NCBI RefSeq assembly: GCF_024832785.1
Contig: NZ_CP116615.1
Coordinates: forward strand, 2,790,001 to 2,854,000
Source: Fontisphaera persica
Lineage (GTDB): Bacteria; Verrucomicrobiota; Verrucomicrobiia; Limisphaerales; Fontisphaeraceae
Direction: 5' to 3'
Length of the DNA: 64,000 bases
Numbering within the stretch: the first letter of the stretch is position 1; every line of letters begins with the position of its first letter. A model generated the notes under the pieces. The model saw nothing but the letters and a program-made list of their open reading frames with translations, made no database searches and was not told the DNA's origin. Below, piece after piece: positions 17,976-22,800 of this stretch. Made by a program: the position numbers and the translations under genes.

Positions 17976-18812
17976 TCATTTTGATTTGGTTAAAAAAGCC
18001 CGCAAACCGCCCAAATCGTCAGTATTCAGCAAATCCACGCCCGCCGCCTGCAAGGCCGCCCACATCGGCGGGTTGTCGGGTGTTGCCCAAAACCGGAGGC
18101 GCCGTCCCTGTTGATGGGTCCGCTGCACCAGCTCCCGCAACTTCTGGCGCTCCTCCTCCGGCATGTCACCCGTCCCACGCCAGCGGAAATGCAAAATCCA
18201 GTTATCGCTGATTAGCGGCATCAAATGCGGCGAAGGATTGCGCTCCAAATCCGCCAGCCGCCCGTCAATTGCCACCCACCGCCAGGGTTCCGCCGCCACC
18301 CGCGCCGTCGGCCGGTTGCCCGATAAAATCACCGTCACTGCGCCGGGTACAGTGCTGGTGGGGGTAAAATGAGTCAACATGTTGGTGTAGCCCGCCAGAA
18401 GGTTGCGCAGCACCGCATAGGTGGCTTCCGCTTCGGATTTCAGGTCAATCATCAAGGTCACCACCGGCCCCTGCGGATAGACGCGCCCGCCGTTCTGCCG
18501 CACCCGCTCCTGCAAAGGGTCCAGGTACAAGCGTTGCAACGTGCGGTCCGGCCGCGCATCGCGGCGGTCGTGCGCCACCAAAAGCTGGCCCTCCACCAGC
18601 CAAATATCGGCCTCCACGCTGCAAAAACCATGCGCCAGCGCATCAAGCAACGGCCGCTCATGCTCGTAGTCGTTGTGCGCATGAGCCTGCGGAAGCGGTG
18701 ATGGACCAACTGGCGCTGCTGCGTTGGCCCCAGCCACCAGCCAAACGAGCAGGACAACTCCGTAGCGCAGCCGTCCCCGGCTGCGGGTCGGCGCACCGTC
18801 CCGGTGCGCCAT
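17976..18812 (-). CDS. Exported PI-PLC/GDPD-superfamily phosphodiesterase-like protein (AIM6-like)
   Basis: The mature region shows HAHNDYEHERPLLDALAHGF, then SVEADIWL and LLVAHD. This is the metal-binding His/Glu/Asp pattern of the PI-PLC/glycerophosphodiesterase TIM-barrel superfamily, in the subgroup that includes AIM6-like proteins. Residues likely involved are His44, His46, Glu67, Asp69 and His81. It is preceded by a hydrophobic signal segment, GVVLLVWLVAGANAAA. No start codon lies between that segment and the adjacent repeat, so the nearest start is the ATG at 18812 inside the repeat; residues 1-17 would then be repeat-encoded. The frame also remains open through a second repeat up to 19097. 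The start is therefore provisional. The CinA-like gene follows after 4 bases. Confidence 0.75.
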   Translation of the reverse strand: MAHRDGAPTRSRGRLRYGVVLLVWLVAGANAAAPVGPSPLPQAHAHNDYEHERPLLDALAHGFCSVEADIWLVEGQLLVAHDRRDARPDRTLQRLYLDPLQERVRQNGGRVYPQGPVVTLMIDLKSEAEATYAVLRNLLAGYTNMLTHFTPTSTVPGAVTVILSGNRPTARVAAEPWRWVAIDGRLADLERNPSPHLMPLISDNWILHFRWRGTGDMPEEERQKLRELVQRTHQQGRRLRFWATPDNPPMWAALQAAGVDLLNTDDLGGLRAFLTKSK

Positions 18813-18841
18813 CTTTTCCGGCGGCGGGACGCCTGCGCTAC
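18762..18841. repeat. Dispersed palindromic repeat, copy 1 (short 80-bp form)
   Basis: The element begins GTAGCGCAG and ends CTGCGCTAC, an inverted terminal pair. Inside are two perfect stem-loops, GCAGCCG-TCCC-CGGCTGC and GGCGCACC-GTCCC-GGTGCGCC, and one fused, imperfect third stem. Compared with copies 2 and 3 it lacks 24 bases, consistent with loss between two similar stems. It overlaps the 5' end of the phosphodiesterase-like gene. Confidence 0.9.
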
Positions 18842-18935
18842 AACTCAAGCCAAGTGAAGAAAGAACCGCAGGGGACGCCAATCTTCCCACCAGGTTAAAT
18901 CCACAACTGGAACCTGCAAACTGCATGCACTCTTT

Positions 18936-19039
18936 GTAGCGCAGCCGTCCCCGGCTGCGGGTCGGCGCACCGTCCCGGTGCGCCGTCTTTTCCGGCGGCG
19001 AGACGCCGCCTTCACTCGCAGGCGAGACGCCTGCGCTAC
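18936..19039. repeat. Dispersed palindromic repeat, copy 2 (full 104-bp form)
   Basis: It has the same termini as copy 1 (GTAGCGCAG and CTGCGCTAC) but four consecutive stem-loops. The last two are GGCGGCG-AGA-CGCCGCC and GCAGGCG-AGA-CGCCTGC. It lies 57 bases upstream of the RAYT start codon. The 94 bases between copies 1 and 2 contain no recognisable gene. Confidence 0.92.
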
Positions 19040-19096
19040 GACACAAGCGCGGCCCAACGCAAGTTACTTGTTCAAACATTGCTTTGGTGATACTCA

Positions 19097-19756
19097 ATGG
19101 ATGAAACCATTATTAACATGACAGATCAGACGCCGCCAGATCATCTTCTGACTGGCTTTCATTCCCGCAACAGTCTCCCCCATTTGAAACGCGAAGGAGC
19201 AACCTATTTTGTTACCTTCCGCCAAGCTGGCACCCTGCCAAAAGCGGTGCTTATTCGTTTCAAAAAAGAACGTGAGGCAATTCTCCAACGAGCCGTGGCT
19301 GAAAAACGACCGCTCACCTGGCATGAACAAAAAGAACTATTTCAGTGGTATTCCAGCCGCGTGGATCAATACCTTGATTGTGGTTACGGTACCTGCCATC
19401 TGCGGCGCCCTGATGTGGCGGCACTGGTTGCCAAGGCCCTGTGCTATTTCGCCGGCCAGCGCTATCAATTACAGGCGTGGGTCATCATGCCCAATCATGT
19501 TCATGCAGTCGTTCGGCCCATGCCAGGGCACACGTTGAGTCAGATTTTACATAGTTGGAAGTCCTATTCGGCGCATCAAATCAATGCGTTGCTCTCTCTA
19601 AAAGCATCGCCTTTCTGGCAAAAAGAATCGTATGACCACTTGATCCGGGATGAAGACGATTTGCTGCACTGTTATTCTTACACCGTCATGAATCCTGTTA
19701 AAGCAGGCCTTTGCTCCGTGCCCGAAGCCTGGCCTTGGAGCAGCGCCCATGCGTAG
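19097..19756 (+). CDS. REP-associated tyrosine transposase (RAYT, Y1/HUH family)
   Basis: The 219-residue protein belongs to the IS200-like Y1 transposases domesticated as RAYTs. It has the HUH motif in WVIMPNHVHAVVRP (His134, His136) and a candidate catalytic tyrosine in FWQKESYDHLIRDEDD (Tyr179). It also has the family ending YTVMNPVKAGLC...WPWSSA. RAYTs process single-stranded REP hairpins. Here two complete copies of a multi-stem-loop repeat flank the gene (57 bases upstream and overlapping its end) and a third lies nearby, the classic RAYT arrangement. The stop codon TAG (19754-19756) is itself the second to fourth base of the downstream repeat. The gene is visibly less GC-rich than its neighbours, suggesting acquisition. 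Confidence 0.93.
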   Translation: MDETIINMTDQTPPDHLLTGFHSRNSLPHLKREGATYFVTFRQAGTLPKAVLIRFKKEREAILQRAVAEKRPLTWHEQKELFQWYSSRVDQYLDCGYGTCHLRRPDVAALVAKALCYFAGQRYQLQAWVIMPNHVHAVVRPMPGHTLSQILHSWKSYSAHQINALLSLKASPFWQKESYDHLIRDEDDLLHCYSYTVMNPVKAGLCSVPEAWPWSSAHA

Positions 19757-19856
19757 CGCAGCCGTCCCCGGCTGCGGGTTGGCGCACCGTCCCGGTGCGC
19801 CATCTTTTCCGGCGGCGGGACGCCGCCCTCACTCGCAGGCGAGACGCCTGCGCTAC
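19753..19856. repeat. Dispersed palindromic repeat, copy 3 (full 104-bp form)
   Basis: This copy is near-identical to copy 2, with four stem-loops and GTAG...CTAC ends. The left GTAG supplies the TAG stop of the rightward RAYT gene. On the opposite strand, the right end read backward (CTAC becomes GTAG) supplies the TAG stop of the leftward triheme protein gene. The element thus forms the whole boundary between two convergent genes. Confidence 0.93.
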
Positions 19857-22800
19857 GGTTTTGGCCAGAGGGACTGCCAATACCGTTGTTCGATTTCATA
19901 AAAGTTGATTTGCGTGACCGCCGGGTCCAAATCCAGTGGCAATATCCCGTACCGTTTCATTTCGCGTATCCATCCCTGGCGCGGCACATAGCCCGGCATG
20001 TCAAAACGCTTGATTTTGGCCAGGTAATCCTTGCCCGCCTGCGCCATGGCCACCAGCTTCTGCCAGTCCGGGTCTGCCGTCTCTGCAAACACCACCTGCC
20101 CCGCGCGATTGGTGCATATTCCCAACCCGCCCGCCTCCCGCGCCAGCGGCGCCAGGGCGAGGAGGGATTTTTCCGGCCGGCTTAAATTGAACACAATATG
20201 GCGGCTGAACTGCAACCGCGGGTCCTTCAAATCAAACCGCCAGAAGGAAATGCCCAGCTCATCGGACATCGAGCGCGGCAATGTCCGAGGTCCCGTGTGG
20301 CATTCCGTGCAACGGCGTTGGATGACTTCCGCCCCGGCCCGGGTGGCGGGCCACGCGGTGTCGAGATGGATTTGCTCGTTTTCCTGGTAGCCCCCAATCG
20401 AACCCGCCCCCAAGGCCGCATACGTACCCGGATAAACCGCCCCTGACTCAATCCACAACCGCAGCCACTGTTTTTCCTGCGGCGTGGCCTGGACGCCGTA
20501 ATGTGAGCCATCAAGCATCTTCAAGAGCCGGCTCGCGCTCGACCCCAATTCGCGCGGGCGGTAATTGCTGCGGGCCTCGTTGCGGCCGTCCCGGAATAGC
20601 TGCTTCACCGTCAGCGTGAAGTAAGCATGGGAAAACATGGGGCCGTAATCCCCCGTCAAAATGATGCCGCCCGCTCGCGGCCCGCCCCGCGGGGTGGCCG
20701 TGTAATCATGGCAATCCGCACATAAACGATTGAGGATGGGCTGAATGTCCCGCGGAAAATCAAACACCTCCGGCGCACCCGCGATTGGCTCAATGCGGCT
20801 GGGCGTCCGCCGCACGGCCATGAGCGGCCCGGGCGGCAGATAACTTTTGGTGCGTTGCTCATGGCATCCCACACAGCTCACCAGCTCGCCCGGCTGCACG
20901 GTAAGAAAACTCTGCATGCGTTTGACGGCCATGTCGTTCGCGTCCAGCGCCACAAAAAACAACCCGCGCATGGCCGGCAGCTCGACATAAGCCGAACCAT
21001 CCGGCTCGACCGGGACGGTTCCCAAAATGCGCTCCAAGGTGAACGAGCCGCCGTAGGTCAGCGGGTCCATGCCGCCGGTGAAGTTGATGGGCTTGGGCAG
21101 GGTTTCAAGGACGAGGAGTTTTTTGATTTCACCCGGTTTCACTCCCTGCATGTTGCGGCCCTCGTAGATGTTGGCCAGAATCACCCGGCCGGTCGTCTGT
21201 CCCGGGTGCGCCAGGGGCGCAATCACTTTCTCGCGCGGATGGGGCAACAGCGGGCGCGGCTCGTGGAGCCAGTACCCGTCGCGGATGTCACTCTCCGGGA
21301 GCCGATACAAAGGAGTGGCCGCCCCCCGCCCGTTCATGAGCTGGATTTCCGCCCCCGCCGCCACCATGAAAGCGTCTTCAGAAAAAGCCCAGGGGTCGCG
21401 GAAGTCCTGCCGTCCCCGGCTGATGGTGCGCGCCATCCGGGGGTCATCCGGGCCGCCCGCCGGGTCCACCAACGCCACCGCTCCGGCGTGCTCGCGCTGA
21501 CCGTGGCCCGGGGAGAAAATGGCCACCACTTTGGCGCTGTGAGGAATGGGCTTGGCGTCAATCATCACGATGCCCGGCCGTTGATTCCCATAAAAAATCA
21601 TTTGCGCCGTGCCATCGGGATTGGCGGTCCACAAGTGATGATAATCCACCTGCGAGCGGTCCACATACTCCCAGCGCTGATAGAGAATCCGGCCATCCGG
21701 CAGGACCCACGGGGTGTTGTCGTGCTCGTTGTTGGCGGAAATCATGCGGAGGTTGCGGCCGTCGGCGTCGCAGCGATGCAACGTGGCCACCTGGGTCAGC
21801 CAGCAATTCACCCAGCGTTTGGCGCGCGTGCTCACAAACACAATGCCGCCATCCGGCAGCCAGCAAGGCTCAAAGTCATCGTAATTCCCGTCGGTCAACT
21901 GCCGCAGCCCCGTGCCGTCGGCCTGGATGGTGTAGAGATGGTAGTGCTCGCTGTCCCCCTTGCGGTAGGAGAAGAGGATGGTCTTGCCGTCGTAATGCAC
22001 CACCGGGTCGCGCACGCCGCCGCGCGGATCATCAATCAGCCAGCGCACCTCGCCGCGGCGCACATTCAACACGCCCAGCTTGCCCCCCAGCCGATAGGTC
22101 ACCCGCTTGCCGTTGTGGGTGAAGGGATGGCCTTGCTTATACTCCAGCTCACAATCCGCATAATAACTGATGTTCGCATACCAATGGCCGTCATCGCCCA
22201 CCTTGCGCGTGGCAAAAACCACCTCCTCCACTTGCGCCATCGGCCCCGCCAGAAACGCCTCCTTGTCTGGCGGCTCCATGCCCCGGAGCGGCAGCGGGGC
22301 GTTGCGCGGCCCGAGATACACATAATCATAAATAATCCAACTGCCATCGCTCAGGGTGATGGTAATCCGATTCTCGCCCGCCTGCAGCGCCGCCGCCGGC
22401 ACCGGAAACACCAGGGCGGACGCCTGCCCCTCCTGGTGCGGGTCACTCGCCACCCCACGCCCCCGCGGAGCCGTGCGCCGCGCCAGCTCCCGGCCATTCA
22501 CCCCAATCACCACCGTGGAAGGCGTGTGCGCATCGGCCAAACCCAAAATCAGATGCAACGTTTCCACGGGCCGCTGCGGCAGATTGAAAACCATGGTGAA
22601 GGTGTGCGCCCTGCTTCCGGCCCACCGGTCATGATGCGAGGGATGGATATAAGGCCAGTCCTGCAAAGGGCTTTGGCCCACCTTGAACACAATGGGCTGA
22701 GGATACCGGCGGGCATACGCCGGCCATTGCTCGTCGCACAGGCCAAACTCCAGCGCCGAGCCATCCGGCTGGCCCAGTAATATAACGGCTTCTGAAACTG

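Follow-up and report, generated by a model that had tools for sequence, protein, structure and literature searches.

REP-associated tyrosine transposases (RAYTs) are Y1 HUH transposases encoded beside GTAG-footed palindromes, the repetitive extragenic palindromes (REPs), and in the described REPtrons the abundance of the repeat is linked to the resident RAYT, with which the REPs coevolve (PMC2817692, PMC6006769, PMC8266576; here and below, statements on published systems refer to the accessible parts of the papers cited). Paired forms are also known. A REPIN is made of two inverted GTRG-footed REPs and a spacer, is foldable, lies beside a RAYT and is non-autonomous (PMC3116915), and GTAG-REP dimers with structured spacers are likewise arranged head to head (PMC3733652). 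The latter work offers a precedent for a four-stem-loop dimer, the CGTC-3 dimers of A. tumefaciens with two stem-loops in the spacer, and it already lists the verrucomicrobium Opitutus terrae as rich in GTAG repeats. Double-foot REPs, bounded by GTRG on one side and CYAC on the opposite side, have been assigned to TnpAY1 subclass 2.4 (PMC6006769). Here we describe a RAYT gene and three surrounding copies of a four-hairpin element in a 64,000-nucleotide stretch (the window) of Fontisphaera persica, a member of the verrucomicrobial order Limisphaerales (contig NZ_CP116615.1, positions 2,790,001 to 2,854,000), whose one-contig genome of 4.73 Mb is called G000 below. We consider it probable that the locus is a REPtron, in which a RAYT is accompanied by its own REPIN-like elements, each built of two inverted two-hairpin REP units that would be read through GTAG and the hairpin tips.

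The three copies share one orientation (+ strand) and lie around the RAYT gene at 18762-18841 (80 bp), 18936-19039 (104 bp, upstream of the gene) and 19753-19856 (104 bp). The sequence GTAGCGCAG occurs six times in the window, every time at an end of one of these copies, against 0.27 expected, and none of 100 shuffles reached six. Copies 2 and 3 share 100 of 104 positions. Copy 1 corresponds to copy 3 (79 of 80 positions identical) except that 24 bp are absent between stems 3 and 4; seven registers are possible for the break, as is characteristic of deletions between short direct repeats. Coordinates and copy alignment thus bear out what an earlier note on this DNA had described: three copies with common ends, lengths of 104, 104 and 80 bp and a 24-bp shortening. 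Folded as single-stranded DNA, the 104-mers form four consecutive hairpins (z -7.88 for copy 2 and -8.07 for copy 3, with 0 of 200 shuffles equally stable). The up to four stem-loops of that note are therefore found, but they follow one another and are not nested, although the GTAGCGCAG and CTGCGCTAC ends could pair. The 80-mer takes another fold (z -5.13) because its stems 3 and 4 are merged. In copy 2 the hairpins lie at 18940-18959 (H1, tip CGTCCCCG), 18963-18985 (H2, tip CGTCCCG, then TCTTTT), 18994-19010 (H3) and 19017-19035 (H4), the last two both with the tip CGTCTCG when read on the - strand. The order is GTAG-H1-linker-H2-spacer-H3-linker-H4-CTAC; since either end presents a GTAG foot, a hairpin, a short linker and a second hairpin, the element is an inverted pair of two-hairpin units. 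Copy 3 lies between two convergent open reading frames (ORFs) and provides the stop codons of both (19753-19755 and 19853-19855), its left GTAG ending the RAYT gene and its right CTAC a - strand gene. Stop codons supplied by GTAG REP feet were already known (PMC3733652), and at 22 of the 50 loci of the RAYT clade defined below the RAYT stop was scored by script as part of a GTRG- or GTAA-type foot. At the gathering threshold, Rfam models matched nowhere in the window.

Compared with known REPtrons, the REP unit of the window has two strong hairpins and not one, each flank is a complete inverted pair, the two flanks of the gene are direct copies and the host belongs to the Verrucomicrobiota. 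The element differs from a REPIN in having two hairpins per half instead of one palindrome per REP, in the tip shared by four separate hairpins and in that full copies are not dispersed in G000. As for the CGTC repeats of PMC3733652, no associated transposase is given there, and shared tips or tip switching are not described. The double-foot REPs of subclass 2.4 have one hairpin, and the YTVMNP motif of the window RAYT falls outside that and every other Quentin subclass consensus with which we compared it (by eye, over the motifs NHVH, WQ and YTVMNP). A four-hairpin REPIN with a RAYT, or concerted switching of tips, was not found in the accessible parts of PMC3733652, PMC6006769, PMC8266576, PMC2817692, PMC3116915 and PMC12306157 or in wider listings, subscription journals and supplements lying outside the search. 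The four-hairpin architecture and the concerted tip switching described below thus look new, whereas RAYT-REP pairing, REPINs and coevolution were already known.

Judged by its sequence, the gene product is a RAYT. The gene (19097-19756, + strand, 219 aa), whose stop codon TAG comes from the GTAG foot of copy 3, scores 100.5 bits against NF047646 (cut-off 80), matches Pfam Y1_Tnp and is flanked by GTRG-footed REP palindromes, as the definition of a RAYT or TnpAREP asks. In an alignment of 40 sequences, invariant positions include N133, H134 and H136 of the HUH motif N133-H134-V135-H136 (19493-19504), the putative catalytic tyrosine Y195 (19679-19681) with N199 and P200 in a Y-x-x-x-N-P motif, W174-Q175 (19616-19621) and R184. 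The last three residues align with W94, Q95 and R104 of E. coli TnpAREP in structure 4er8; all three are named there in connection with the GTAG guide, which W94-Q95 contact (PMC6006769). This structure, E. coli TnpAREP on a REP hairpin, was the sole sequence match among solved structures at E<=0.1 (E 1.1e-8), and it was also the best match of a predicted fold (mean pLDDT 84; E 1.8e-8, 18% identity), which served for this comparison alone. These results confirm the RAYT assignment made earlier. The identification of a single HUH gene held as well, a RAYT-profile search of the genome giving one match in the window range, with other HUH families outside its scope. At E<=1e-20 the window RAYT is the single match in G000, as expected of a RAYT and unlike an insertion sequence that has multiplied; three further RAYT-family matches are weaker, and one of them lies inside alaS. 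Two other identities were tried and rejected: an IS200/IS605 TnpA, as NF033573 gave 26.4 bits against a cut-off of 55, and a TIRtron protein (TIRYT), whose gene would lie between long terminal inverted repeats with no relation to GTAG REPs, as the flanks are GTAG-footed.

The association of element and RAYT holds well beyond this genome. RAYT relatives were found at E<=1e-20 in 119 of 293 genomes of the order, G000 included, and 70 loci were analysed: all 50 matches with E<=8.3e-58 (30 plus 20), referred to as the clade, and 20 more distant RAYTs. To pass a strict filter, an element had to have a terminal inverted repeat, ends resembling GTRG/CYAC and four correctly placed hairpins. Out of the 50 clade loci, 39 carried the four-hairpin element (25 upstream, 32 downstream, 18 both); in shuffled flanks the figure was 0.00. 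In contrast, only one of the 20 more distant RAYTs did so, L185, which branches with the clade in a tree. Further loci came from named records, mostly of other Verrucomicrobia, Planctomycetes, Betaproteobacteria and others. We tested 37 of 65 such loci and set aside two (L096 and L097), one of them the only match, as contigs of the order already counted; the element was found at none of the remaining 35, some of which may belong to the host order. From 39 of 50 against 1 of 20 and 0 of 35 we conclude that the architecture belongs to one RAYT clade, in agreement with the suggestion of the earlier note that it forms a distinct, lineage-specific family. The pairing of RAYT and repeat which that note had mentioned for Proteobacteria likewise extends across the order, in the 39 clade loci and in repeat abundance that tracks the matching RAYT subclade (below).

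Written from the foot inwards, the hairpin tips are often alike within an element, for example CTTTCCAG four times, CGTCYCG, TCTCYGA or TTTCCAAA. Tip similarity within elements was 0.712, against 0.505 (sd 0.010) when hairpins were shuffled among the 39 loci, and 0 of 2000 shuffles were as high. The tips also follow the transposase: on the RAYT tree 11 changes of tip class were counted, against 21 to 29 in 500 shuffles, the tree having 50 rows, a short search and modest support, and the 11 loci without a parsed element being left uncounted. A Mantel test of RAYT distance against tip distance, which is free of tip classes, agrees with this result (r 0.44 when the same hairpin position is compared and 0.35 across different positions, reached in 0 of 5000 each). 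Genomes with several RAYTs repeat the pattern. G268 has one CGTC and one TTTCC locus, each with an element matching the class of its RAYT clade, and in G110 the TTTCC, TCTC and TTCCAA loci match their own clades, while a fourth RAYT, of the CGTC clade, is without a filter-passing element. G151 is less clean, as its second RAYT branches with the TCTC clade and has tips of another class. Hairpin tips therefore switch together between loci, following the RAYT tree, and they are likely to be a recognition code.

A mechanism can be proposed by analogy with E. coli TnpAREP, which requires GTAG and an unpaired bulge but not the loop sequence, and with two group 3 TnpAREPs, which require loop bases (PMC8266576); recognition, cleavage and movement are all inferred from these enzymes. 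A REP unit would consist of a GTAG foot and two hairpins in a row (GTAG-H1-GGTT-H2), and two inverted units would give the four hairpins. The RAYT would most likely recognise the single-stranded unit through the GTAG foot and the tip sequence, CGTCYCG in the window lineage. As the stems of the window 104-mers are drawn without a bulge, it seems natural that the tip and GTAG should be what is recognised. The protein would bind the two-hairpin unit and cut beside the foot using Y195, and the inverted pair would be the unit that is moved or copied. Because one protein must read four tips, we propose that the tips stay alike in each element and change jointly as the RAYT evolves. The likeness of the tips might instead reflect plain descent, H1 to H4 deriving from one duplicated hairpin or being homogenised by gene conversion with no recognition by a protein. 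An inverted duplication would indeed make H1 like H4 and H2 like H3, and gene conversion alone could produce part of the concerted change. Plain descent leaves unexplained, however, that different hairpin positions co-vary with RAYT distance across loci (the Mantel r of 0.35) and that the H1 and H2 tips agree more within loci than between them (0.633 against 0.487); both indicate that the tips changed in concert after the duplication, and we regard descent without recognition as an unlikely explanation.

Recognition of the elements by the RAYT is also in keeping with repeat counts. Two linker types, GGTT and TGTATC, were counted in the same 293 genomes and compared by Fisher tests. GGTT-type repeats reached at least five copies in 11 of 19 genomes with a subclade IIa RAYT and in 13 of 274 without (P 5e-9), and were not tied to subclade I (3 of 18 against 21 of 275, P 0.17). 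TGTATC-type repeats at the same threshold showed the reverse, being present in 16 of 19 genomes with a subclade I RAYT against 43 of 274 without (P 7e-10) and not tied to subclade IIa (5 of 18 against 54 of 275, P 0.37). The contrast between genomes with and without the RAYT was also seen inside one genus (5 of 7 against 3 of 26, P 0.004), three genomes with other RAYT subclades being excluded. In the comparisons over all 293 genomes, G273 (a near genome), G086 and G097 (truncated matches) were scored as having no clade RAYT, and the GGTT-type pattern overlooks elements whose foot differs, GTAGGGCAGG and GTGGGGCAGG among them. The tips of dispersed copies gave a similar picture. The share of CGTC was 0.99-1.0 in seven genomes with a CGTC-clade but no TTTCC-clade RAYT (three placed by the tree alone) and 0-0.8 in the six scorable of seven genomes with the opposite content (P 0.0006); of these seven, one had no copies, one mostly CGTC (4 to 1) and five mostly TTTCC. 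Genomes with both RAYTs had both kinds of copies, CGTC and TTTCC numbering 9 and 30 in G268 and 91 and 8 in G110. Outside this share test, the CGTC/TTTCC counts were 5/0 in G233, 3/9 in G034, 1/0 in G074 and 49/2 in G264.

A sister species of the same genus, G011 (97% complete), provides an empty site. It has no RAYT at E<=1e-20, and its whole assembly gave zero matches to three repeat patterns. The orthologues of the flanking genes are collinear, with 82% and 76% DNA identity over the aligned parts, and the 1,173 bp at 18699-19871 of the window correspond to 201 bp in G011. This indicates that G011 represents the empty state, the REPtron having been either gained in G000 or cleanly lost in G011. 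As a separate observation on this region, copy 1 overlaps the possible 5' end of a - strand GDPD-family gene, with a candidate start codon at 18810-18812 (- strand); the residues preceding a signal-peptide-like stretch fall inside the copy, and by eye the N-terminus differs in the sister species.

The repeats of G000 itself were counted and classed as well. The sequence GTAGCGCAGNCGTC, made of the foot and the start of H1, has 144 copies in G000 (73 and 71 by strand) and none in a backwards control. Among the 100 of these 144 matches listed in position order, only three fall in the first 2.08 Mb of 4.73 Mb. Out of 138 GTAGCGCAG sites classed in the clusters examined, 75 have the same H1 and linker with a different H2, and the others fall into groups of 17, 15, 12 and 19. 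In the three clusters studied in full (L042, L058 and L059) the dispersed half-elements form intergenic mosaics with other repeated stretches, some of them tandem.

Several results weigh against a RAYT that still serves its own elements. The full element occurs three times in G000, always at the RAYT and once shortened, and the dispersed population is mostly made of two-hairpin halves that are related to but distinct from the RAYT's elements, so that mobility of the full element in G000 is only putative. The filter was not passed at 11 of the 50 clade loci, the tip classes behind the 11 changes on the tree were set by hand after the tips had been inspected, and the G011 assembly is in 70 contigs. 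Kinship of the genomes inflates the Fisher tests, which the within-genus test alone eases; at a threshold of one copy, TGTATC-type repeats lean to subclade IIa genomes too (11 of 18 against 88 of 275, P 0.018), and 8 of the 19 IIa genomes have fewer than five GGTT-type copies. Repeat populations also occur without a matching RAYT. At least five GGTT-type repeats are present in nine genomes without a clade RAYT and at least ten TGTATC-type repeats in 25 genomes without a subclade I RAYT, no matching RAYT being found in the genomes with TGTATC-type populations of 205 (G037), 185 (G081), 153 (G169) and 115 (G177). A subclade I protein search at E<=1e-50 gave none in G037, G169 and G177, and in seven of eight repeat-rich genomes the flanks, up to 1.5 kb, of 26 more distant RAYT matches from a profile search contained no such patterns. 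Five of six genomes without a clade II RAYT, mostly picked as repeat-rich, had at least ten CGTC or TTTCC copies (CGTC/TTTCC 13/1 in G282, 0/10 in G250, 16/0 in G285, 12/0 in G025, 10/0 in G043 and 0/0 in G011). Dependence on the RAYT is thus not strict. Such genomes may have lost their RAYT, an event reported for many E. coli strains (PMC3733652), or the repeats may be maintained by some other factor. The expectation that genomes without the RAYT would lack the repeat consequently stood for G011, which has neither, and did not stand for several repeat-rich genomes without a matching RAYT.

These populations, the undispersed full elements of G000 and the mosaics with other repeats in the three clusters would all fit a RAYT that is domesticated and idle, the repeats being relics or having spread by recombination or other transposases and their adjacency to the gene being a fossil of an ancestral insertion sequence. 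We give this explanation little credence, since tips and linkers follow the RAYT lineage, the catalytic residues are invariant in the 40 sequences and, in G002, H1 starts occur away from the RAYT contig in inverted pairs 106-108 bp apart, at six places among those listed (only H1 starts were scored).

The element might also act on RNA. H2 is followed by TCTTTT and is terminator-like on the + strand in all three copies (18790-18819, 18963-18995 and 19780-19812), and five terminator-like sites lie in 1.5 kb against 1.9 expected. That the element is mainly a terminator or stabiliser of mRNA 3' ends, kept by selection on the expression of its neighbours with the RAYT as a passenger, would suit these sites, the position of copy 3 exactly between convergent ORFs whose stop codons it gives and the functions of this kind discussed for other REPs (PMC3733652), but it explains neither the joint switching of four tips with the RAYT lineage nor the bracketing of RAYT genes and the GTAG feet at both ends, and is very improbable. 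A side role as RNA may exist.

RAYTs also occur at a second kind of locus. One of the more distant RAYTs of G000 lies in frame inside alaS (L063:822-4352, C1 about 2,494,821-2,498,351), in a 1176-aa ORF with AlaRS domains on either side of it. The alaS of the sister species is uninterrupted: its matches to residues 492 and 695 are only 6 bp apart (91-92% identity), and 631 bp of the G000 gene correspond to 31 bp in the sister, that is 200 extra codons. By eye, the insert starts with two hairpins (tips CGTCTCG and CGTCCCG) and ends with two inverted ones. It would thus be composed of a two-hairpin REP, a RAYT and an inverse REP, which suggests that the four-hairpin element is a miniature of such a unit. 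The AlaRS of G147 (L232), from another family, has an insert at the same place. RAYT matches in open frames of at least 900 aa numbered at least 28, and 20 were analysed (L205-L224), with alaS as the twenty-first. Foreign domains were found on both sides in 15 of the 21, in what we take, judging by Pfam domains, to be DnaE (3), a DinG-like helicase (5), PriA (3), ClpB (2), an SNF2 helicase (1) and AlaRS (1). The remaining six comprise five with a UDPGP domain downstream only and one in a type I restriction R-like ORF, close to its N-terminus. L242 of G282 looks like a further PriA case. The inserts in the DinG-like, PriA, DnaE and ClpB frames appear by eye to occupy recurring sites, and many of the flanks are REP-like palindromes read in frame. 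In a tree the intragenic RAYTs are separate from the free clade and group largely according to host gene, two free-standing RAYTs branching with them. That REPs can lie within genes of DNA repair and replication was known, notably from O. terrae (PMC3733652); a RAYT gene inside a housekeeping gene was not found described in the accessible REP and RAYT literature, subscription journals and supplements lying outside the search. We tentatively extend the proposal to these loci, as a possibility that falls somewhat short of being the probable one: the 7-8 nt tip would be an address code, the RAYT would read GTAG and two like tips, and whole REP-RAYT-inverted REP units would have jumped into housekeeping genes.

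The choice of a REP by its RAYT is only partly understood: two group 3 enzymes depend on loop bases and the E. coli enzyme does not (PMC8266576). The order studied here is a natural mutational series for this question. It has several tip classes, the hairpins of any one element sharing a class that matches a RAYT subclade, and some of its genomes contain two or more RAYTs together. The match of tips to RAYT lineage makes a recognition code testable. The RAYT domains in housekeeping genes are relevant to two questions, whether RAYTs move at all and how they persist. If whole units did enter such genes, some RAYTs would be intein-like, perhaps non-splicing, parasites of housekeeping genes, and this would contradict the view that RAYTs no longer move themselves.

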